Shown: positions 1,712-13,445 of the stretch, one piece after another
How the letters are laid out: each line of letters begins with the position of its first letter
How positions within the stretch are numbered: the stretch's first letter is position 1
Assembly: GCA_024278215.1 (NCBI GenBank)
Contig: JAJRTR010000085.1
Location: 1 to 21,305 of the forward strand
From: a bacterium
GTDB lineage: Bacteria; UBP15; UBA6099; JAJRTR01
Direction: 5' to 3'
Length of the DNA stretch: 21,305 bases
Translations under genes and position numbers: made by a program
Notes under the pieces: generated by a model
What the model saw: the letters and a program-made list of their open reading frames with translations, nothing else
What the model was told of the DNA's origin: nothing
Databases searched by the model: none

Positions 1712-1834
1712 CTACAGCATATTTTACATGACGAGTCGATTTTGTAACGGAAGAGAATTCATCGGAGTTTGCTTCGGGGTCGAGATGATACGTGAGTACC
1801 GTGCTTAAATGGTATGTGAGCGGTATCGGGGAAG

Positions 1835-1936
1835 ACCGCATATTTTACCAATGCGGGTAAAAAATCGTGAGAATGGGGGACTCGCGATTTCCCGGCTCTC
1901 TTTGTGCGAAATCCGGGATAGGTTTTCGAAAAAACC
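1835..1936. promoter_or_regulatory. Cluster of hairpins upstream of the PorV-like gene
   Basis: Four inverted repeats lie in a row: CCGCAT (1836-1841) with ATGCGG (1851-1856); AAATCGTGAG (1862-1871) with CTCGCGATTT (1881-1890), one G-T wobble; TCCCGG (1890-1895) with CCGGGA (1913-1918); and GGTTTT (1921-1926) with AAAACC (1931-1936). They lie upstream of the TATAAT at 1991. They could therefore be operators, the end of an unseen upstream transcript, or a structured small RNA. Confidence 0.4.
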
Positions 1937-1990
1937 GGACTTTATCAACAGCGTCAAATCCGAAAGGTTTCCGGACAGCGTTCAGTGTTA

Positions 1991-1996
1991 TATAAT
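1991..1996 (+). promoter_or_regulatory. Candidate -10 box for the PorV-like gene
   Basis: A perfect TATAAT lies 37 nt before the ATG at 2033. The -35 region 17 nt upstream (TTTCCG, 1968-1973) is weak. A GGGGAG ribosome-binding site at 2016-2021 precedes the start by about 11 nt. Confidence 0.45.
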
Positions 1997-2032
1997 TCGT
2001 AAGCATCAGCGAATCGGGGAGAATGAAATAAT

Positions 2033-3088
2033 ATGAAAAGAACAATATTGGTAATGGTAATTATGTCGGCGGCTGCGATGTTCGCGGTCGTGCGTGCGCA
2101 GGCGTTCAACATTCACGAACTCAACGGCTCGGACCTCGGTATGGGTGTGGGCGCGCGCGCCATCAGCATGGGCGGGGCGTTCACCGCGCTCGGTGATGAC
2201 GCATCGGCACTCTACTGGAACCCGGCGGCGATCACTGAAATGGATCACAATGAAGTCATGTTGATGATGGACATGGACCCGACGCGATATTCGTATAAAG
2301 CGGTTGTCTACAGGCCCGGGAGCCGGGCACGCAATCCGTACCACATGACATTCGGGCTCGGTCGCACCAACAGGCTGAAATACATCGCGGACGGCGACTG
2401 GACCGAGGGGAACGCGGGCCACCTCATCGACTTGAGCATGATAAATGTTGAACGCGATTATGTCGGCGGTCTCAATTCGAGGACAAACGACTGGCGCGTA
2501 ACTTTCGCTTCACGTGTCCCGCATTATGAAAACCTTTCACTTGGTTTCACCTATATTGACTTTGAATGCACTACTACTTTTTACGGAGCCGGCGCGGGCC
2601 GGATATGCCAGACTGTAGCCTACGACACGATCGACTTCGGACTGCATTACCGTGACAGCGAAACACGTCAATTCGGACTCTCTCTGCGCAATCCGATGGA
2701 GGCCACCAAACCCAAGTATATAAATATCGGCTCTGCTTTCTTTCGTGGCGACGACACTTTTACTTTTGATATCGAACACATCTTCGGTAATTACAGCCAG
2801 GAGTACCGCTCTGTGAATTTCCTTATGCTGCGCGCGGGAATGGAAAGGGACATGGGCAACGGATGGAAATTGCGCGGCGGCATCATTTATCCCATTCGCG
2901 CGCGCACGTCCACACTCGGCAACATACGCTCGAAAATCCCGTCTCCCAAGTTCGACGTAGCCGCAGGCGCGGGATATACATTCAGGAATTATGTTCTCGA
3001 CTTCGCGATATATGGAGACCCGGGCTGGGGCTATGTGAAAGAAGAGTTGCGGGCCCGGTCTCTGCTTACACTTAGATATAAGTTCTGA
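2033..3088 (+). CDS. PorV/PorQ-like (UPF0164) outer-membrane beta-barrel protein
   Basis: A 351-residue protein with a Sec signal peptide (KR at 2-3, hydrophobic core, probable cleavage at about residue 24, after AQA). The mature N-terminus carries the family signature: MGVGARAISMGGAFTALGDD followed by ASALYWNPAAI, seen in PorV/UPF0164 and the wider FadL-like barrels. The rest alternates polar and aromatic residues in beta-strand fashion and ends in LTLRYKF, with the terminal Phe expected of a substrate of the BAM machinery. It should sit in the outer membrane. In Bacteroidetes, PorV works with type IX secretion, but UPF0164 relatives occur in many phyla without it, and no other secretion gene is visible here. 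The start is supported by GGGGAG 11 nt upstream; an earlier ATG at 2023 stops after two codons. It stands alone, with its own promoter and a hairpin downstream. Confidence 0.8.
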   Translation: MKRTILVMVIMSAAAMFAVVRAQAFNIHELNGSDLGMGVGARAISMGGAFTALGDDASALYWNPAAITEMDHNEVMLMMDMDPTRYSYKAVVYRPGSRARNPYHMTFGLGRTNRLKYIADGDWTEGNAGHLIDLSMINVERDYVGGLNSRTNDWRVTFASRVPHYENLSLGFTYIDFECTTTFYGAGAGRICQTVAYDTIDFGLHYRDSETRQFGLSLRNPMEATKPKYINIGSAFFRGDDTFTFDIEHIFGNYSQEYRSVNFLMLRAGMERDMGNGWKLRGGIIYPIRARTSTLGNIRSKIPSPKFDVAAGAGYTFRNYVLDFAIYGDPGWGYVKEELRARSLLTLRYKF

Positions 3089-3228
3089 GCCGCTTGCAGT
3101 ATTTTCAAAAATGGTATTCGATTAAAAAGCAAGATGCTATTACGAGGATCGCGCTCTGTAAAATCGCAAAGAATTCCCCAATACTTGCATCGGGGTTATT
3201 ATTACGTTGGATCAGCACAGCATTGAGA

Positions 3229-3249
3229 GAAGCGCTCTTTTTGCGCTTC
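3229..3249. terminator. Stem-loop with T-rich loop
   Basis: GAAGCGC (3229-3235) pairs with GCGCTTC (3243-3249) around the loop TCTTTTT. No T-run follows, so a terminator role is uncertain. Confidence 0.3.
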
Positions 3250-3275
3250 CGGGCGAAAAGTTTTGAAAGAGTGTG

Positions 3276-3294
3276 AGGCCGGCATTGCCGGCTT
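3276..3294 (+). terminator. Possible terminator for the PorV-like gene
   Basis: GCCGGC (3278-3283) and GCCGGC (3287-3292) form a six-pair stem around ATT, extended by a G-T and an A-T pair and followed by TTCTT. It is GC-rich and compact, but the T-tract is short. Confidence 0.4.
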
Positions 3295-3370
3295 CTTGTG
3301 CAAAGGGCGAGTATGTGACCGATCCCGAGTCGCCACCGCAACGCGGTAGAACATGTGTTATCCCGTTTTT

Positions 3371-3395
3371 CCGGATTTCTTCGTGAGAAATCCGG
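3371..3395 (-). terminator. Perfect 10-bp stem-loop just after the DUF192 gene
   Basis: CCGGATTTCT (3371-3380) pairs perfectly with AGAAATCCGG (3386-3395) around TCGTG. It begins 3 nt beyond the stop codon of the minus-strand gene at 3398, so it probably protects or ends that transcript. The T-run next to it lies on the wrong side for a minus-strand U-tail. Confidence 0.45.
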
Positions 3396-3397
3396 GG

Positions 3398-3892
3398 CTA
3401 AATATTCCCGGGGATATCCACCTGGTCGCCGATGTCGATGCTATGTTCATCGCAGTAGCCGCCGTTTACTTCGAGGACATATCTTGCGGGTGCGGCGGAT
3501 GTGAAAGGTTCGAGCGAGAGCGGCACGGCGTCGTGATTGATATCGACGATACTACCAGATGAATTGATGAAAATCATGTCGAGCGGGATAAGGGTGTTCT
3601 TCATCCAGAAGGATCGGGTCTGCTCGTCGTCGAAGACGAAAAGCATTCCGTCGTTTTCGCTGAGTGATTCCCTGTTCATGAGGCCGATCTGGTGTTGCTC
3701 ATCGGTTACAGCGAGTTCCACGCCGACAGAGAAAACTTCCGACGAAGAATTCGTTATTGTAACAACTTTGAGGCTGGTGTCGCGGGATGCGCCGGTTGGC
3801 GACCCTGTGCCGCAGCCTGTGATACAAACAGCTATGAGAATGAGACTATAGATTACTTGCGGCATTTTGCGAAGACTCCGCGGCGGGATCAC
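3398..3892 (-). CDS. DUF192 family lipoprotein
   Basis: A 164-residue protein of the DUF192 family (COG1430). The signature block is residues 69-120: GLMNRESL, then GMLFVFDDE, then FWMKNTLIPLDMIFI. The family has no settled function. The N-terminus is a lipoprotein signal peptide: Arg and Lys at 5-9, a hydrophobic stretch, and the lipobox ITGC with Cys27 as the lipidated residue, so it should be membrane-anchored and periplasmic. The GTG at 3892 is preferred because it supplies the positive n-region. The ATG at 3865 is the alternative: it has GGAG 10 nt upstream and would still keep the lipobox. The gene follows the MBL hydrolase by only 15 bp, so they are probably co-transcribed. A perfect hairpin follows the stop. 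Confidence 0.85.
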   Translation of the reverse strand: MIPPRSLRKMPQVIYSLILIAVCITGCGTGSPTGASRDTSLKVVTITNSSSEVFSVGVELAVTDEQHQIGLMNRESLSENDGMLFVFDDEQTRSFWMKNTLIPLDMIFINSSGSIVDINHDAVPLSLEPFTSAAPARYVLEVNGGYCDEHSIDIGDQVDIPGNI

Positions 3893-5892: not shown

Positions 5893-7341
5893 TTACAAAA
5901 TATACCGGCTTAAGTCAATATCTTCGGCAATATCTTTCAACTTGCCGACCACATAGCCACTGTCTATTTTCACCTCTCCCTGCACACCTTCCGGGGCCTC
6001 GAACGATATTTCCTCGAGGAGTTTCTCCAGTAACGTATGCAGCCTGCGCGCGCCGATGTTCTCCGTCTGTTGATTAACCCGCGTCGCCGTCGCCGCGATC
6101 TCTCCTATCGCCTCTTCGTTGAAGTCAAGCTCCACGCCGTCTGCCCCGAGCAAAGCCACATACTGTTTTATCAGCGCATTGCGCGGCTCCGTGAGGATGC
6201 GCCTGAAGTCTTCTGTGCTCAGGCTGTCAAGCTCGACCCGCAACGGGAATCTGCCCTGCAACTCGGGAATCAGGTCCGAAGGGCTGCTGCCGGAAAACGC
6301 GCCGGCCGCCATAAATAGAATATGGTTTGTTTTTACAGGACCATACTTTGTAACTACCGTGCAACCTTCAACGATCGGCAGTATATCCCTCTGTACACCC
6401 TCGCGCGACACATCCGGGCCGCTGCCTCTGCCCTTGCGTATCGCAATCTTGTCTATTTCATCTATGAATATTATCCCGGATTGCTCGACCAGTTTGACCG
6501 CCTCCGCGCGGACTGCATCTTCGTCGATCAGTTTTTCCACTTCCTGGTTTAGCAGCAGTTTCTTCGCTTCACCGATTGTGACCTTCCGTTTCTTGCTGCT
6601 TTTCGGCATGAGATTGCCCATCATGTCCTGGATATTTATCCCCATCTCCTCGATGCCCGTATTGCTGAATATCTCGACCATCTTCGGGTTGGCGTCGCTG
6701 ACTTCGATCTCGACTGTATGGTCATCCATTTCGCCGCTCGCCACCTTTTCACGCAGGCGGTCTCTCATGCGTTCGAGCTGTGGTTTTTCTTTGTCTACAG
6801 GCGGCTCGTCTTCGGTGGATTGAAGGGTGAACGGTTTCCGTTTGGCAAACTTGGACGGCGGCTGAAGGATATCGACTATCTGGTCGATGACAAGTTCGGT
6901 GGCCTTCGGTTCGAGTTTTTCCTGCCGACGGCCCTTCACCATGCGGATACCGGCTTCCATGAGGTAGCGCACCATGCTCTCGACATCGCGGCCCACATAA
7001 CCTACTTCGGTATACTTAGTCGCCTCGACCTTGATAAACGGCGCGCCCATAAGTGTGGAAAGCCTGCGCGCAATTTCCGTCTTCCCGACACCGGTGGGAC
7101 CGATCATAAGGATGTTTTTCGGTATTATCTCTTCGCGGAGTTTTTCTTCGACACGTCCCCTGCGGGTTCTATTTCTTAAGGCGATTGCGACAACTTTTTT
7201 CGCGTTTTTCTGGCCGATCACATATTTATCTAGTTCGGCGACAATCTCCCGCGGGGTCAGATCGATTTCGTAGCCGCCCGCGACGGCAGGCGATGCGGGC
7301 GCGAGTTCAACAACTTTACTATTCTTCTTTTCTTCATCCAT
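5893..7341 (-). CDS. hslU: HslU, ATPase subunit of the HslVU protease
   Basis: A 482-residue AAA+ unfoldase that feeds substrates to HslV. It has the start block [17 protein letters not shown] (28-44), Walker A GPTGVGKT (81-88), the pore motif GYVG (114-117), Walker B IIFIDEID (290-297) and the C-terminal tail ending LSRYIL that docks into HslV. It is longer than the roughly 443-residue E. coli protein because of a 25-residue N-terminal extension rich in Lys, Glu, Ala and Pro, and because of a larger intermediate (I) domain at about 140-270. It starts 4 bp after the hslV stop with no close Shine-Dalgarno site of its own, so translational coupling to hslV is likely. Confidence 0.97.
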
Positions 7342-7345
7342 AACT

Positions 7346-7885
7346 TTATTCGAGTGTCTCCAAAACTACATTATTATTGGTATAAATGCAAAGCGAGGCG
7401 GCGATCGAAAGCGATTCCTTTGCGATCTCGTCGGCCGCCATGTCGGTGTTGCCGATGAGCGCGAGCGCGGCCGCCAGTGCCATCGTGCCGCCCGAACCGA
7501 TCGCCGCTACACCTTCGTCGGGCTCGATGACTTCACCGGTGCCCGAAAGCAACAGCATGTGTTCACGGTCCGCGACCAGCAGCATCGCCTCGAGCTTACG
7601 CAGGTATTTGTCTGTGCGCCAGTCACGGGCAAGTTCGCGTGCCGCTCGCGTCAGGTTGGTATTGTGCTGCTTCAGCTTTTCCTCGAACCTTTCAAGAAGC
7701 GTGAGTGAATCGGCCACTGCGCCCGCGAATCCCGCCAGCACCTTACCGTCGGCGATTCGCATGACCTTGTGCGCTGTACTTTTCATAACATTCGCGCCCA
7801 GCGTCACCTGTCCGTCCCCTGCGAAAGCCACCATGCCGCCACGGCGTATACCGATTATCGTCGTGCCCATTATTCTGTCATTCAT
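7346..7885 (-). CDS. hslV: HslV, peptidase subunit of the HslVU protease
   Basis: A 179-residue proteasome-beta-type peptidase. MNDRIMG is a short propeptide: the catalytic N-terminal threonine should be Thr8 of [10 protein letters not shown], exposed by removing seven residues. An internal ATG at residue 6 would leave only Met-Gly ahead of it. [21 protein letters not shown] and AAIGSGG are strongly conserved family blocks. HslV forms two stacked hexamers and degrades unfolded substrates delivered by HslU in the cytoplasm. GGTGGAGAG just upstream of the ATG is a good ribosome-binding site. It is the first gene of the hslV-hslU-HDOD unit and lies 68 bp after the tRNA-Gln gene. Confidence 0.97.
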
Positions 7886-7953: not shown

Positions 7954-8025
7954 CTGGGGTGGCAGGATTCGAACCTGCGAATCCCGGGACCAAAACCCGG
8001 CGCCTTACCGCTTGGCCACACCCCA
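7954..8025 (-). tRNA. tRNA-Gln (anticodon TTG)
   Basis: On the minus strand the sequence folds as a complete cloverleaf of 72 nt. The acceptor stem TGGGGTG/CACCCCA is perfect, with discriminator G. The D arm is GCC...GGC with loop AAGCGGTAA. The anticodon stem CCGGG/CCCGG encloses the loop TTTTGGT with anticodon TTG. The T arm is GCAGG-TTCGAAT-CCTGC. No CCA is encoded, as the next bases are TTA, so the tail must be added after transcription. It lies between the nucleotidyltransferase gene and hslV, in the same direction. Confidence 0.97.
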
Positions 8026-8282: not shown

Positions 8283-9050
8283 TCATGCCCGGTTTTCTAT
8301 AACATTTTTCACCAGCAGGTAATCGCTCTCTTTGTCCACATCGACACCTATTTCCGGGTCCGTTACCTGCACGGCGCCGCCATCCATACCTACGATCTGT
8401 TTAACTTTGTTCTCGAGCATTTCCAAGGTGAGAATTCCGAGCACGTATCGTATTATAAAGGATATACCGATAAGCCTGAGCATTTTCATTACATTCTTTC
8501 TGCCTGCGATAGCCTGTTCCAGCATCTCCCAGTTGCGCCGTATCACCAGCGGGTTCAGCAACACAAGATTGCCGCCTGTGAACACGCCGTCTTTCAAATT
8601 GAAATATGTTCTTTTAGTTTTCGGGAATTTTTCATCGTTATATTTTTTGTTTATTATAGGGTAATAAACGTCGCCCTTCACCTTTTCGCATTCTCTGAGG
8701 AATCTCGACACCATATCCGCTGTTACGAGAGGTATATCGCATGACGATATGATCAGCCTGTCGGCATCCTTGAATTTTTCGATACCCAGCCACAGGTTCC
8801 CAAGCATAGTATCTTCTGCCTCGACTACCTGGATCACCCTGCCCGCCAGCACATCGCGCAACGGGTCCACAGGTCCGACTACAAGTATCTTGTCGACCTC
8901 TTCGGCTCCGTTCAGCGCATCCACAACGTATTCGATCATATAGCGCCCACCGATTTTCAACAATGCTCTGTTGTCATAACCGGAACTGTACTTCTTCAGG
9001 TCGTCGGGCAGCGTGCCGCCCGCAAGTATCAGAACATCAACTTTTTTCAT
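8283..9050 (-). CDS. MobA-like nucleotidyltransferase family protein
   Basis: A 255-residue NTP-transferase-fold protein. It shows the nucleotide-binding LILAGG near the N-terminus (7-12), an activating Lys in LLKIGG (30-35), and the metal-binding acid in ISSCDIPLV (Asp105). It also has GVDVDKESDY near the C-terminus, with the late Asp pair used to hold Mg2+. It should transfer a nucleotide onto a phosphorylated small molecule, but the substrate is not evident; molybdopterin, sugar phosphate and phosphocholine-type acceptors are all used by relatives. The mid-region (about 185-215) is hydrophobic and lacks an obvious family match. It is cytoplasmic. The start has GGTGGAAA just upstream. It is the first of the minus-strand genes and lies about 490 bp from the divergent redox operon. 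Confidence 0.75.
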   Translation of the reverse strand: MKKVDVLILAGGTLPDDLKKYSSGYDNRALLKIGGRYMIEYVVDALNGAEEVDKILVVGPVDPLRDVLAGRVIQVVEAEDTMLGNLWLGIEKFKDADRLIISSCDIPLVTADMVSRFLRECEKVKGDVYYPIINKKYNDEKFPKTKRTYFNLKDGVFTGGNLVLLNPLVIRRNWEMLEQAIAGRKNVMKMLRLIGISFIIRYVLGILTLEMLENKVKQIVGMDGGAVQVTDPEIGVDVDKESDYLLVKNVIENRA

Positions 9051-9542
9051 TTCATTTCCACCCGCTGCTTTCCTTCACCTGATTTGTCGATTCAGCAATA
9101 CTATCAGAATAATTGCCGCGGTTCAATCAGTAATGAAAAACCTCGATCTTCGCAATACTAATGAAGAATCTCCTGTTGCGATCATTATTTGCGACCGTTT
9201 CGCTCGAAAACATACGCGCATTGAGATGTGCCGCTATGAAAAGGAGCCCTGAATGACGCCCCCGCCCCCCCTGATTTTTTTCGCTGGACTATTACAGTAT
9301 ATAGCAGATTGCTTTATAATGGTGTTTGAAGGAGTTTTGTACAGTTTTTGTTTTACCGGGAATAACGAGTTGTGAAGAATGAAGCATGACGATTGATGCA
9401 GGAACCGGACAGGAATTATCGGAATAGAATTGAATATTTTATGGTTTTCTTATAATGAAAGTGGTATGATTTACGGATTGATAAAAAAGGGTAAGACATA
9501 ATAAGCAAAATACGGATACGGCACCGGATGGAGGAAAGGCGG
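9051..9542. other. Divergent intergenic region between nucleotidyltransferase and redox operon
   Basis: About 490 bp. It contains a C-tract/T-tract block (9247-9281) and at least two TATAAT boxes reading toward the redox operon (9315-9320 and 9451-9456). A 40-codon ATG frame at 9133-9252 looks non-coding. No other gene is seen. Confidence 0.5.
9291..9320 (+). promoter_or_regulatory. Candidate promoter for the redox operon
   Basis: ATTACA (9291-9296, four of six matches to TTGACA) and TATAAT (9315-9320) are separated by 18 bp. This would give a leader of about 215 nt before the ATG at 9543. A second TATAAT at 9451-9456, with TTGAAT at 9430-9435 (15-bp spacer), would give a shorter leader. Confidence 0.4.
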
Positions 9543-10256
9543 ATGGAACAGTTATTGCAGTTTGCAAGAGGCCCACTTTTCATAATGACATTTATGTTTA
9601 TGATGCTTGGGTTGTTGAGGCTGCTTGTCTCGCAATTTGTGTATATGACCGGCATAATAAGCAGGGCTGAGGGTAGCGATTCACCGGTCGAAAAAGCAGG
9701 AATTTCCGCTACTGGCTGGTTCGAGCCGGTCAGACAATTGCTGAAAGCGCGACCGCTTTTCGCTATTGCCTCTATAATATGGCATATTATACTCATTATT
9801 ACACCACTTTTACTTGTTAATCATGTGATGCTGTGGAACCGTGGGCTTGGGATCAACTTCCCGCTCGCGCTTACACTGAACAGAAATGTAGCGACAGCAC
9901 TGACAGTGATTACAATCGGGCTCACACTGCTGCTTTTAATCTTCAGGATCGGCAGCAAGGCGTTGCGCGAAAAAAGTGAGCCGGCGGACTTTTTTCTGCT
10001 TATACTTCTCGCGGTTCCGTTCGTGACGGGGTTCTTCGCCGGCCACCCCACTATTTCACCAATGAGTTATAACTCGATTATGTTCTTACATATACTCAGC
10101 GCGGAAACAATTTTTGTGCTGATCCCCCTTACGAAGCTGGCCCATGCGGCGCTCTGGCCGTTCGGGTCGCTCTCGACTTATTCATACTGGGTATTTCCGG
10201 GAGTCGGGGTCGGTAAAGACTCCGGCGAGTTGATTGGAGAGGAGGCCGGTATATGA
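9543..10256 (+). CDS. NarI-like membrane cytochrome b subunit (HmcE/DsrM-like)
   Basis: A 237-residue polytopic protein with about five transmembrane helices (roughly 10-34, 72-97, 113-135, 150-167 and 181-205). It has paired membrane histidines: His81 and His94 in the second helix, His183 and His201 in the last. The 18-residue spacing of the last pair equals that of the haem b ligands His187/His205 in NarI, so two b haems and quinol chemistry are likely. Relatives are the gamma-type subunits NarI, DsrM, TmcC and HmcE. The start is the ATG at 9543, because GGAGG (9530-9534) sits 8 nt before it; the upstream ATG at 9528 would contain that site. Its stop overlaps the ATG of the ferredoxin gene (ATGA), so the two are coupled. 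It is the first gene of the redox operon. Confidence 0.8.
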   Translation: MEQLLQFARGPLFIMTFMFMMLGLLRLLVSQFVYMTGIISRAEGSDSPVEKAGISATGWFEPVRQLLKARPLFAIASIIWHIILIITPLLLVNHVMLWNRGLGINFPLALTLNRNVATALTVITIGLTLLLLIFRIGSKALREKSEPADFFLLILLAVPFVTGFFAGHPTISPMSYNSIMFLHILSAETIFVLIPLTKLAHAALWPFGSLSTYSYWVFPGVGVGKDSGELIGEEAGI

Positions 10257-11089
10257 GTGGCGGCCATACCGACACAAGCAAACAGGCCGCAATTCTCACC
10301 GACACGACAAAATGTGTCGGTTGCCAGAAATGCGTCAAGGCCTGTGTCGAAACAAATAAGACGGGTGATCCCGTACCCTATATTCGCGCCCATCCGGACG
10401 GTCTGTCCGGGACACGCTGGACATCGGTTCTGCGCGTAAGGGATGAAGAACAGGGTATATCGAGATTTGTCCGCAAGCAATGTCTCCATTGCGTGGAAGC
10501 TTCATGCGTATCCGCCTGCCTGGTGGGCGCTATGCAGAAACAGGATAACGGCCCGGTCATCTACGATGCCGACAGGTGTATCGGATGCAGGTATTGCATG
10601 GTCGCGTGTCCATATAAGATTCCTCGTTCACAGTGGGACACCTGGATGCCGTTCATCAACAAGTGCATTATGTGCTATGAGCGGCTTGAGGAAGGCAAGC
10701 CTCCCGCGTGTACGGCGGCGTGCCCATACGGCGCGACGATTTTCGGAACCCGCGAGGAGTTGCTTGCCGAAGCGAAACACCGCATCGCGAAGGAGCCCGA
10801 CCTGTATATCGACCGGGTCTGGGGGGAACACGAATTCGGAGGCACCAATGTTTTTTATGTCTCAGACGTTTCACTCGAAGACCTGGGTTTTCCGAAGGAA
10901 CTCAACGAGGCGAATACGATATCGATTCCGGAAAAGAACTGGCCGATTGTCAGCGCGACGCCGTTTGTATTTACATTTGTATACAGTGGCCTGCTGCTGT
11001 CTTCTTTTGTCATCAGTCGCCGCATGAAGCTACAGAAGGAAAGAGAAGAAGCGGCAAAATCAAGTCACTTTGAAGACGAAATCATCTGA
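10253..11089 (+). CDS. Four-cluster ferredoxin subunit with C-terminal membrane anchor (HybA/HmcB/DsrO-like)
   Basis: A 278-residue electron-transfer protein. Cysteines fall in the four groups of the HybA/NrfC/DsrO family: 21-24-27-31, 77-80-85-89, 109-112-115-119 and 138-141-153-157, enough for four [4Fe-4S] clusters. One transmembrane helix follows at about 234-255, then a basic RRMKLQKER tail. There is no twin-arginine or Sec signal, and none is possible upstream because an in-frame stop lies at 10214. The start is certain: GGAGG ends 8 nt before it and it overlaps the previous stop. The protein should connect the cytochrome b and NrfD-like subunits. Which membrane face it occupies is unclear: the lack of a signal argues for the cytoplasm, while the positive-inside rule for the tail argues for the other face. 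Confidence 0.88.
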   Translation: MSGGHTDTSKQAAILTDTTKCVGCQKCVKACVETNKTGDPVPYIRAHPDGLSGTRWTSVLRVRDEEQGISRFVRKQCLHCVEASCVSACLVGAMQKQDNGPVIYDADRCIGCRYCMVACPYKIPRSQWDTWMPFINKCIMCYERLEEGKPPACTAACPYGATIFGTREELLAEAKHRIAKEPDLYIDRVWGEHEFGGTNVFYVSDVSLEDLGFPKELNEANTISIPEKNWPIVSATPFVFTFVYSGLLLSSFVISRRMKLQKEREEAAKSSHFEDEII

Positions 11090-11103
11090 CCGGCCCGGGC
11101 CGG
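11090..11103. repeat. Perfect 14-bp GC palindrome between operon genes
   Basis: CCGGCCCGGGCCGG begins directly after the ferredoxin stop codon. It could form a short hairpin in the operon mRNA between the ferredoxin and NrfD-cytochrome genes, or be a chance GC palindrome. Confidence 0.5.
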
Positions 11104-11147
11104 CGCATGCAGTCGGCGGGACATAATATGGAATATGGAGTTATTTG

Positions 11148-12956
11148 ATGAAAAGGCTTACAAGGATTAAAGGAGTACTCTGGGCGCTCGCTATGTTCGG
11201 ACTGGTGGCTATTGTCGCGAGGCTGATAAACGGTCTGGGCGCAACCACAAACCTGTCGGATGCGCTGCCGTGGGGACTGTGGAAGGTGGGTAACATGGTC
11301 GCGGGCGTCGCGCTCGGCACCTGCGGATTCGCTATTGCCGCGGCTGTTTACGCGTTCAAACTCGAGCGCTATCAAAAACTTGCGCGGCCCGCTGTCCTCA
11401 TAGCATTCCTCGGCTACGGCTCCTCCTGCTTTTCACTTTTTCTCGACATAGGGCTGCCCTGGCGTATATGGCACGCCATCGTCTATTGGAACATCCACTC
11501 GTTCCTCTTCGAAGTCGCATGGTGCGTCATGCTCTATTTTTCTATCACTCTCTATGAAACCGCGCCGGTTATTCTAGAAAGAACAAAGTTCCACAAGCTG
11601 GCCCATACGATGCACAGAGTCGCTTTCCCGATAATCCTGCTCGGCATCAGTTTGTCCACACTTCACCACACTTCGCTCGGCTCGCTCTTTCTTGTCAGCC
11701 CGACACGTGTGCATGAAATATGGATGACCATGCTTATTCCCGTCCTGTTCATAACATCGGCGGTCGGCGCCGGACTGCTGACACTTGTTCTGATCACCCT
11801 TATGTACAACTATCTCTATGACAAAAAACCCGACCTGGATGTGCTCGGCAGCGTGGCCAAAGCAGGCGCTATCCTGTTGTCGATCTATGCGATTATCAAA
11901 GGCTACGATATAGTGAACCGCGATATTATCCCTGTCATCCTCAGCGGACAGTGGGAGGGCATACTCTTTATATTCGAATCTATCCTGCTCGTTTTCATAC
12001 CGGTTGGAATAATCTTTTCGGGCCTGGCAAAAAAGAGCGCCAACCTGATGGCTATAGCCGCCGGTTCGGCGGTAATCGGCGTTGTCCTGAACAGGCTGGA
12101 CGTCGGCATCCTGTCTTATTTCCGAACAGCGGGCGCGGTCTACTACCCGTCGCTGCCCGAGATATTCACCACACTCGGCATATATTCCGCCGCCGGACTG
12201 TTTTTCTTCTTCATGGTCGAGAACTTCGAGGTCTTCGATAAACCACCGGTCAGGCCGAAAGACGCAGGCGAAGCACAGTCGCCCGACAGCACGTTCGGCC
12301 CCATCAGGAGTTTCGGCGACGGTGTGCTCCGGAACCCGATACACCGCTACAGCGCAATTGCAGTTGTTTCTCTGGTTCTCGCGGTCGGGCTTTTCAGCAG
12401 TTCGCTCCTGAAAGGCGCTCCGATGCTGTCGGAGAAAGTCGCGCCGCCTACCGCGTTGGACAATGAAAGAATGGTGCTGGTGATTAACGGCAACAAGAAC
12501 GATGTCTCTGTAGCATTCAGGCACGACATGCACAAAGCTATGCTCGGCGGCACACAATCGTGTATCCGATGCCATCATCTCGACATGCCGGACGACAAAA
12601 ATACCGCCTGCTGGAAATGCCACACGAACATGGAACAGAAAACTGATATTTTCAAACATGCATTCCACCAGGAAAAACTCGGCGGCAACGATAGCTGCGT
12701 CAAATGCCATACCGACACATCCCGGCCCAGATGGCGCGATAACACAAAAAAATGTTACGAGTGCCACGAGGAAAACATGGGGATGCTCTTCACTGCGGAC
12801 GATAAGTCCTACGACTACATGGCGCCGAGCTATGTCGATGCAATGCACAAGAAATGCGTCGGCTGCCACATAGAAATGCAGAATACCGTCGACAGGCCAG
12901 CGCTCGATGAATGTTACACTTGCCACGGCGATGTCAAACTTCAAACCGTAAGGTGA
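11148..12956 (+). CDS. NrfD/HybB-like quinone-interacting membrane protein fused to a hexahaem cytochrome c domain
   Basis: A 602-residue fusion. Residues 1 to about 370 are an NrfD/HybB (PsrC) type integral membrane domain with about nine to ten helices; ALPWGLWK near residues 40-47 and the LERTKFHKLAHTMHR segment are typical of HybB. A short Pro-rich linker (about 370-400) leads to one further helix (about 402-422), then a soluble domain with six CxxCH haem c motifs at Cys472, 488, 517, 536, 570 and 589. Spaced HxxxH pairs such as HDMH, HAFH and DAMH could supply distal ligands, as in class III / c7-like cytochromes. The haem domain must be periplasmic. The start is ATG 11148, with GGAG 7 nt upstream; a TTG lies directly before it. 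It is the last gene of the redox operon and is followed by a terminator-like hairpin. HmcC, DsrP and HybB are the nearest relatives, normally without a fused cytochrome. Confidence 0.88.
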   Translation: MKRLTRIKGVLWALAMFGLVAIVARLINGLGATTNLSDALPWGLWKVGNMVAGVALGTCGFAIAAAVYAFKLERYQKLARPAVLIAFLGYGSSCFSLFLDIGLPWRIWHAIVYWNIHSFLFEVAWCVMLYFSITLYETAPVILERTKFHKLAHTMHRVAFPIILLGISLSTLHHTSLGSLFLVSPTRVHEIWMTMLIPVLFITSAVGAGLLTLVLITLMYNYLYDKKPDLDVLGSVAKAGAILLSIYAIIKGYDIVNRDIIPVILSGQWEGILFIFESILLVFIPVGIIFSGLAKKSANLMAIAAGSAVIGVVLNRLDVGILSYFRTAGAVYYPSLPEIFTTLGIYSAAGLFFFFMVENFEVFDKPPVRPKDAGEAQSPDSTFGPIRSFGDGVLRNPIHRYSAIAVVSLVLAVGLFSSSLLKGAPMLSEKVAPPTALDNERMVLVINGNKNDVSVAFRHDMHKAMLGGTQSCIRCHHLDMPDDKNTACWKCHTNMEQKTDIFKHAFHQEKLGGNDSCVKCHTDTSRPRWRDNTKKCYECHEENMGMLFTADDKSYDYMAPSYVDAMHKKCVGCHIEMQNTVDRPALDECYTCHGDVKLQTVR

Positions 12957-13028: not shown

Positions 13029-13445
13029 ATGCCTGAATCACTAAAGAAAAAGATACTCATTGTTGAAGACGAGCCGGATGTCGTCTCATACTTCACGATG
13101 CTTCTCGAAGACAACGGATATACCGCGATTGCCGCCGACAGTGCGGACATGGGCTTCGAGATTGCAGACAAAGAAAAACCCGACCTTATTTGCCTCGATA
13201 TCATGATGCCGCGCAGGTCGGGACTTTCTCTTTATAAAGAGTTGAAAAGGGATGAGTCCCTCAAAGACATTCCTGTTGTAATAGTAAGCTCCTTCGGCCA
13301 GCCCGCCGATTTCAAAGGAACACGTTTTTATAAAATAGTTTCAGGCGCCGACGACATCCCCCCGCCTGAATACTTCTGCGAGAAACCCATATCGCCAAAA
13401 GAACTTCTCGGCATGATCAAAAAACTGACCGGCGGCGGGGCGTGA
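13029..13445 (+). CDS. Single-domain response regulator (CheY-like receiver)
   Basis: A 138-residue stand-alone receiver domain. The acidic pocket is Glu13/Asp14 in IVEDEPD, the phosphoacceptor is Asp57 in CLDIMMP, the switch residue is Ser87 or Ser88 in VVIVSSFG, and the conserved Lys is Lys119 in CEKPI. There is no DNA-binding or enzymatic output domain, so it should act by protein contact. Between strand 4 and strand 5 (about 90-116) the loop is longer than in CheY and Pro-rich. No histidine kinase is in the window. The ribosome-binding site is weak (GGGTAAG). queH starts 4 bp after its stop, so the two are probably co-translated. Confidence 0.9.
   Translation: MPESLKKKILIVEDEPDVVSYFTMLLEDNGYTAIAADSADMGFEIADKEKPDLICLDIMMPRRSGLSLYKELKRDESLKDIPVVIVSSFGQPADFKGTRFYKIVSGADDIPPPEYFCEKPISPKELLGMIKKLTGGGA

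Follow-up and report, generated by a model that had tools for sequence, protein, structure and literature searches.

How might a membrane redox complex of the Hmc kind operate when its CCG-domain subunit is not encoded beside it? The question is raised by three plus-strand genes at 9543-12956 of contig C55 of a draft bacterial genome, analysed here over its entire 21,305 bp (the window), which encode a NarI-like cytochrome b, a ferredoxin, and an NrfD-type protein fused to a hexahaem cytochrome c. Here, we propose that this locus is a CCG-less member of a widespread and unnamed Hmc-like family, and that it probably works as a periplasmic cytochrome:menaquinone oxidoreductase like Hmc and Nhc, a reading that we hold with reasonable rather than complete confidence. 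The initial annotation of this DNA had described the same anatomy, including an extra helix between NrfD and the cytochrome, and was borne out in this by the confirmed open reading frames (ORFs), by family models and by an AlphaFold2 (AF2) structure model.

The defining feature is the third gene (11148..12956, + strand, ATG at 11148), whose 602-residue product joins an HmcC/HybB-type NrfD domain of 10 transmembrane (TM) helices, through an eleventh helix (TM11), to a hexahaem class III cytochrome c. Two Pfam models exceed their cut-offs, PF03916 for NrfD (4.6e-12; 46.6 bits against 25.8) and PF02085 for class III cytochrome c (2.7e-14; 53.8 bits against 22.9), whereas the HmcC model, although matched at 1.6e-66, scores 225 bits against a cut-off of 550. 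In the AF2 model (pLDDT 86), the ten NrfD helices are followed by a flexible linker that holds the fusion site (residues about 369-399; 12252..12344, + strand), the eleventh helix (residues 397-422; 12336..12413, + strand) and the haem domain (12516..12935, + strand). Over residues 1-365, the model matches the fold of ActC from alternative complex III (Z 37; 357 residues aligned at rmsd 2.9) and, less closely, that of PsrC (Z 18.7). With its PF03916 match and ten-helix fold, the NrfD part belongs to the HybB/ActC group of NrfD/PsrC-like proteins. The six CXXCH motifs lie at residues 472, 488, 517, 536, 570 and 589, and six distal histidines (459, 462, 477, 504, 507 and 567) are kept at 93-100% in relatives, so that each c haem likely has a bis-histidine pair and the hexahaem domain would serve as a wire, with no open catalytic haem.

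The fusion also fixes the orientation of the protein. The attachment of c-type haem takes place in the periplasm, and TM11 must therefore run outward; with the even number of NrfD helices that precede it in the AF2 model, both termini of the NrfD part are placed in the cytoplasm. The loops agree, with mean lysine plus arginine counts of 1.7-4.6 in the predicted inside segments versus 0.6-1.1 outside, a positive-inside pattern. With the termini inside, the conserved loop GLGATTNLSDxxPWG comes to face the periplasm.

Could two genes have been joined by an assembly error, as the initial annotation had allowed? This is ruled out, as about 80 independent loci are fused at the same place. They come from a scan across 84,980 GTDB species genomes, which returned 529 relatives; the family counts given here rest on the best 80 of the 529. 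Every one of these is a full-length fusion from a metagenome-assembled genome (MAG), and together they span about a dozen phyla, including Acidobacteriota, Zixiibacteriota, Planctomycetota, Gemmatimonadota, Myxococcota, Chloroflexota, Omnitrophota, Armatimonadota, Latescibacterota, Poribacteria, Calditrichota and others. All six haem motifs are retained in 79 of the 80. Full-length fusions were present in 8 of 386 sampled genomes, with scores well apart from those of plain NrfD proteins, and the fusion recurs, at 650 residues, in two wider relatives of the window (G030 and G012). In the nearest relative, from the same order (G002), NrfD and the cytochrome are two adjacent ORFs, with a stop and a new start at the linker. 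The tree makes the window sister to G002 (97, starred) and nests the pair inside the fused forms, so the split in G002 is secondary, or a frameshift of a draft assembly, and not ancestral. The fusion is genuine and old.

The neighbours of the fusion gene reveal a standard operon, in the order CCG-NarI-ferredoxin-fusion. Where 4 kb or more of upstream sequence is available (55 loci), the ferredoxin is present in all 55, NarI in 54 and CCG in 53, the CCG protein being nearest to DsrK (264-274 bits, short of the cut-off of 400). The window, with ferredoxin and NarI directly upstream of its fusion, is nested in this CCG-NarI-ferredoxin-NrfD::cyt6 family, and its want of a CCG gene is a derived state. 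No CCG gene was found on C55, and the intergenic interval 9050-9543 holds no CCG remnant, with neither an ORF nor a match in six frames. Hence the view of the initial annotation that three genes suffice has to be given up, since the usual operon has four genes with a DsrK-like CCG first; its statement that CCG is absent is correct for C55, but not for the family, nor for the host genome, where contig C120 encodes one (see below). At two loci (L121, 8693-10732, and L122), another CCG gene (584-585 bits) stands in inverted orientation upstream of the operon CCG.

A second CCG-less NarI-ferredoxin-NrfD::cyt6 operon occurs in a Bryobacteraceae MAG (L088). There, an apparent TSUP-type transporter occupies the CCG position, and DsrK-like and tri-haem (DsrJ-like) genes lie a few kb upstream of the operon (1795-3847 and 9232-11821). 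Other loci hold still fewer genes: one (L105) has neither NarI nor CCG upstream, and shorter ferredoxin plus NrfD::cytochrome pairs occur in G213, G387, G247 and G111. These cases identify ferredoxin plus NrfD::cytochrome as the core, to which NarI and CCG are added as further modules. The pairs of G213 and G387 (L159, 4460-8793, and L165) are NrfD::pentahaem fusions with neither NarI nor CCG, and that of G213 has a gene for a 16-CXXCH cytochrome immediately upstream. Those of G247 and G111 (L162 and L163) represent another variant, with NrfD fused to a shorter three-CXXCH domain and kinases nearby; multihaem cytochrome genes also lie near L162.

Downstream, 4 kb or more of sequence is available for 58 loci, and 29 of these carry a response regulator plus a histidine kinase, a pair that we read as a dedicated two-component system. 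The window has a DVU0259/DivK-like response regulator (13029..13445, + strand; NF045717, 4.5e-26), and relatives carry homologues of it at the same position, accompanied by a histidine kinase and another regulator, neither of which stands beside the window operon. The family setting resembles the regulator-rich surroundings in which sulfate reducers carry their tmc genes (PMC5109826).

The NarI-like gene (9543..10256, + strand, ATG at 9543) encodes 237 residues with 5 TM helices and appears to specify a di-haem cytochrome b subunit of the TmcC/HmcE type. It matches PF02665 at 8e-6, TmcC (NF045723) at 2.9e-27 (95.6 bits; cut-off of 240 not reached) and HmcE (NF045716) at 4e-23 (82 bits; cut-off of 275 not reached), and had no match among solved-structure sequences up to E = 1. 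H81, H94, H183 and H201 are invariant across 76 relatives, which is the pattern predicted for two haems b.

The main puzzle is the ferredoxin (10253..11089, + strand, 278 residues), whose ATG at 10253 overlaps the stop of the NarI-like gene: family-wide it has no signal peptide, yet its HybA-like C-terminal tail would place it in the periplasm. It is a tail-anchored 4x[4Fe-4S] protein of the HmcB/HybA type, matching HmcB (NF045715, 2.3e-68; 230 bits, cut-off of 420 not reached), HybA (2e-63) and DsrO (104 bits, cut-off of 200 not reached), and its 16 cysteines, in four clusters, are invariant in the family. A single C-terminal TM helix (about 236-254) is followed by the invariant pair R256-R257, just as the C-tail helix of Escherichia coli HybA precedes Arg-Arg (VRRN), and this likeness predicts an N-out/C-in, periplasmic ferredoxin. 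At its other end, the protein begins 20 residues ahead of the first cysteine. An overlooked upstream start with a signal peptide is excluded by an in-frame stop at 10214-10216 and by nearby stops in 59 of 78 family ferredoxins (35 codons or fewer upstream of the first cysteine), and no signal peptide was found in any family ferredoxin seen. In contrast, the host's own HmcB, on contig C109, has a twin-arginine N-terminus, starting MSISRRNFLGALTAG.

A precedent exists in a signal-less, tail-anchored ferredoxin with a HybB-like partner, for which co-export with a FeFe hydrogenase tagged for twin-arginine translocation (Tat) has been proposed (PMC10924467). The window ferredoxin shares both the signal-less C-tail form and the HybB-like partner, but that system has its Tat-tagged hydrogenase for hitchhiking, whereas a crude regular-expression test, which recovered only 2 of 3 controls, found no Tat partner encoded near the window operon and none conserved near the family loci. 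The ferredoxin either has an unlinked export partner, or is inserted by another route, or is cytoplasmic.

Hmc, Tmc, Nhc, Qrc and DsrMKJOP, with which the locus invites comparison, have been worked out mainly in Desulfobacterota. Hmc (HmcABCDEF of Desulfovibrio vulgaris) has the same kinds of subunit, namely a class III multihaem cytochrome, a tail-anchored ferredoxin, a HybB-like NrfD protein and a NarI-like cytochrome b, but its 16-haem HmcA is separate where the window has six haems fused to NrfD, its ferredoxin type carries a Tat signal, as HybA also does, and its HmcD is missing from the window operon. It also has a CCG protein (HmcF), as the family has its DsrK-like CCG and the window operon has none. 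The window subunits all score far under the Hmc cut-offs. Tmc (TmcABCD) provides the closest relative of the window NarI subunit, TmcC, and a DVU0259-like regulator adjoins the window operon; however, Tmc lacks NrfD (PMC4215793) and has a separate tetrahaem TmcA, whereas the window has NrfD and ferredoxin. Both Tmc and Nhc have been viewed as simpler versions of Hmc, and the Nhc operon lacks hmcE and hmcF (PMC4215793); thus CCG-less Hmc-type complexes exist. Nhc (NhcABCD), listed as a TpIc3:quinone oxidoreductase (PMC8076601), is a CCG-less cytochrome-ferredoxin-NrfD complex that reacts with quinones, as is predicted for the window complex, but its nine-haem cytochrome is separate and it has no NarI, where the window has a fused hexahaem domain and keeps NarI. 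DsrMKJOP offers a counterpart to each subunit (DsrK for the family CCG, NarI-like DsrM, ferredoxin DsrO, NrfD protein DsrP and haem protein DsrJ), with the difference that the triheme DsrJ is separate. Alternative complex III and Qrc likewise combine a quinone-side NrfD with iron-sulfur and multihaem cytochrome subunits, but ActA, the pentahaem cytochrome of the former, is a separate subunit alongside two NrfD proteins, and the latter has a separate hexahaem QrcA plus an extra QrcB (PMC8076601).

No NCBIfam equivalog cut-off is reached by any of the three window proteins, and on sequence grounds the family is a distinct Hmc-like one, not Hmc, Tmc, Nhc or Dsr. The initial annotation had left room for an already characterised family; the fusion is indeed widespread, yet no description of it was found in the open-access literature searched, nor in NCBIfam or Pfam. 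A 2021 review of NrfD proteins uses neither 'fused' nor 'fusion', and its table gives separate cytochrome subunits (PMC8076601). The earlier proposal of an undescribed quinone/periplasmic cytochrome oxidoreductase related to Hmc, Tmc and Dsr therefore survives as to relationship, fusion and novelty in the literature searched, though not in its three-gene design.

The host genome holds two further relevant loci. C120 (L023, 6738-12626) encodes a CCG protein and NarI, then a hexahaem protein that lacks NrfD but is membrane-anchored and has a signal-like N-terminus, followed by a response regulator, a PAS/histidine kinase and a second response regulator. Its CCG is the sole close orthologue of the family CCG in the genome and is 60% identical to the operon type; all three redox proteins fall near the window/G002 copies in trees (NarI and the cytochrome nearest or next-nearest), with not all branches well supported. 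This CCG-NarI-TM::cyt6 locus, where the likeness to Tmc is stronger than in the window, is a Tmc-like paralogue complementary to the window locus, having no ferredoxin or NrfD where the window has no CCG. A true Hmc complex is encoded separately, on C109 (L024, 7728-13971, minus strand), with HmcA, HmcB and HmcC all above cut-offs; its HmcA has 15 CXXCH motifs, and its CCG is nearer TmcB (677 of 735 bits) than HmcF. With dsrA and DsrC on C151, a true Hmc, and no NiFe hydrogenase detected in the draft genome, sulfur-type anaerobic metabolism is indicated as the setting. Judging by this gene content, the host probably combines dsr-type sulfur respiration, in either direction, with three related systems that transfer electrons at the membrane.

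How, then, would the window proteins work? In the mechanism that we favour, they would form a complex in which menaquinol (or menaquinone) is bound by the NrfD domain near the periplasmic face; in NrfD proteins the quinone is bound on the same side as the peripheral partner (PMC8076601). The tail-anchored ferredoxin, with its four [4Fe-4S] clusters, would relay electrons between the quinone and the TM11-tethered hexahaem domain, in one direction or the other, and soluble periplasmic cytochromes would be the next partners; this is the most economical path (quinone - ferredoxin - hexahaem - soluble periplasmic cytochrome). NrfD probably couples this transfer to ion movement, both the coupling and the direction of flow being extrapolated from the family. 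In the ancestral four-gene form, the di-haem b of NarI and CCG would add a branch to a cytoplasmic thiol or DsrC-type partner; in this host, NarI may be a second quinone site, or may borrow the CCG encoded on C120. A bolder suggestion, which we put forward tentatively, is that ferredoxins of the NrfD::hexahaem family reach the periplasm by a novel route (or dock on the N-side) and that the CCG-less form is self-contained, with quinone sites in NrfD and NarI. Several points weigh against the favoured mechanism. The ferredoxin, needed in the periplasm, has neither a signal peptide nor a conserved Tat partner nearby; if the role of NarI is to feed a cytoplasmic subunit, its retention in the absence of CCG is difficult to account for; a further CCG could be missing from the host assembly, a draft of 207 contigs at 95% completeness; and no biochemistry was found for any family member.

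Two rivals concern the lost CCG. The window subunits might join the C120 CCG in trans in a full Hmc-like complex, in which electron transfer across the membrane would link the hexahaem domain to a partner in the cytoplasm, for example DsrC. The complementarity of the two loci, the lack of any other close CCG orthologue and the presence of dsrA and DsrC fit this idea, as does the position of the G002 operon CCG among the nearest tree rows of the C120 CCG by path (unstarred). We nevertheless think it unlikely, as the C120 CCG has a cognate NarI and hexahaem protein of its own and the CCG-less operon in L088 suggests that CCG is dispensable. That recurrence also counts against the locus being a decaying, functionless remnant of the four-gene complex, which we regard as highly improbable. 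The derived loss of CCG, and the absence of a histidine kinase and second regulator beside the operon, would suit decay, but the three ORFs are intact, the cofactor ligands are all conserved and the translational overlap of NarI and ferredoxin is retained.

The remaining alternative takes the ferredoxin at its N-terminus: a cytoplasmic protein, docked on the N-side in place of CCG, would link a cytoplasmic donor with the periplasmic haems. It would account for the missing signal peptides, the upstream stops and the outcome of the crude Tat-partner test, but conflicts with the HybA-like tail and its Arg-Arg pair, and with an NrfD of HybB/ActC fold and orientation whose conserved loop is periplasmic. 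Moreover, an N-side cluster has no route to the periplasmic haems without haem b, and the two-gene relatives have the same signal-less ferredoxin without NarI. We judge it distinctly unlikely, and retain the periplasmic cytochrome:menaquinone oxidoreductase as the preferred reading.

A compact fused relative of Hmc is thus carried by many uncultured phyla under no NCBIfam name. For genome annotators, the fusion may serve as a recognisable marker of quinone-to-periplasm electron transfer. The family also shows which modules of Hmc can be dispensed with, namely NarI and CCG, and it makes testable the membrane placement of tail-anchored iron-sulfur subunits that have no Tat signal.

Elsewhere in the window, the minus-strand ORFs at 5893-7341 and 7346-7885 resemble HslU and HslV and, with a tRNA-Gln at 7954-8025, make up an ordinary housekeeping neighbourhood. 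A minus-strand ORF that leaves the contig end (2-1330) probably encodes a large exported protein, with repeated, calcium-binding-like DNDGDG motifs near the ORF end.

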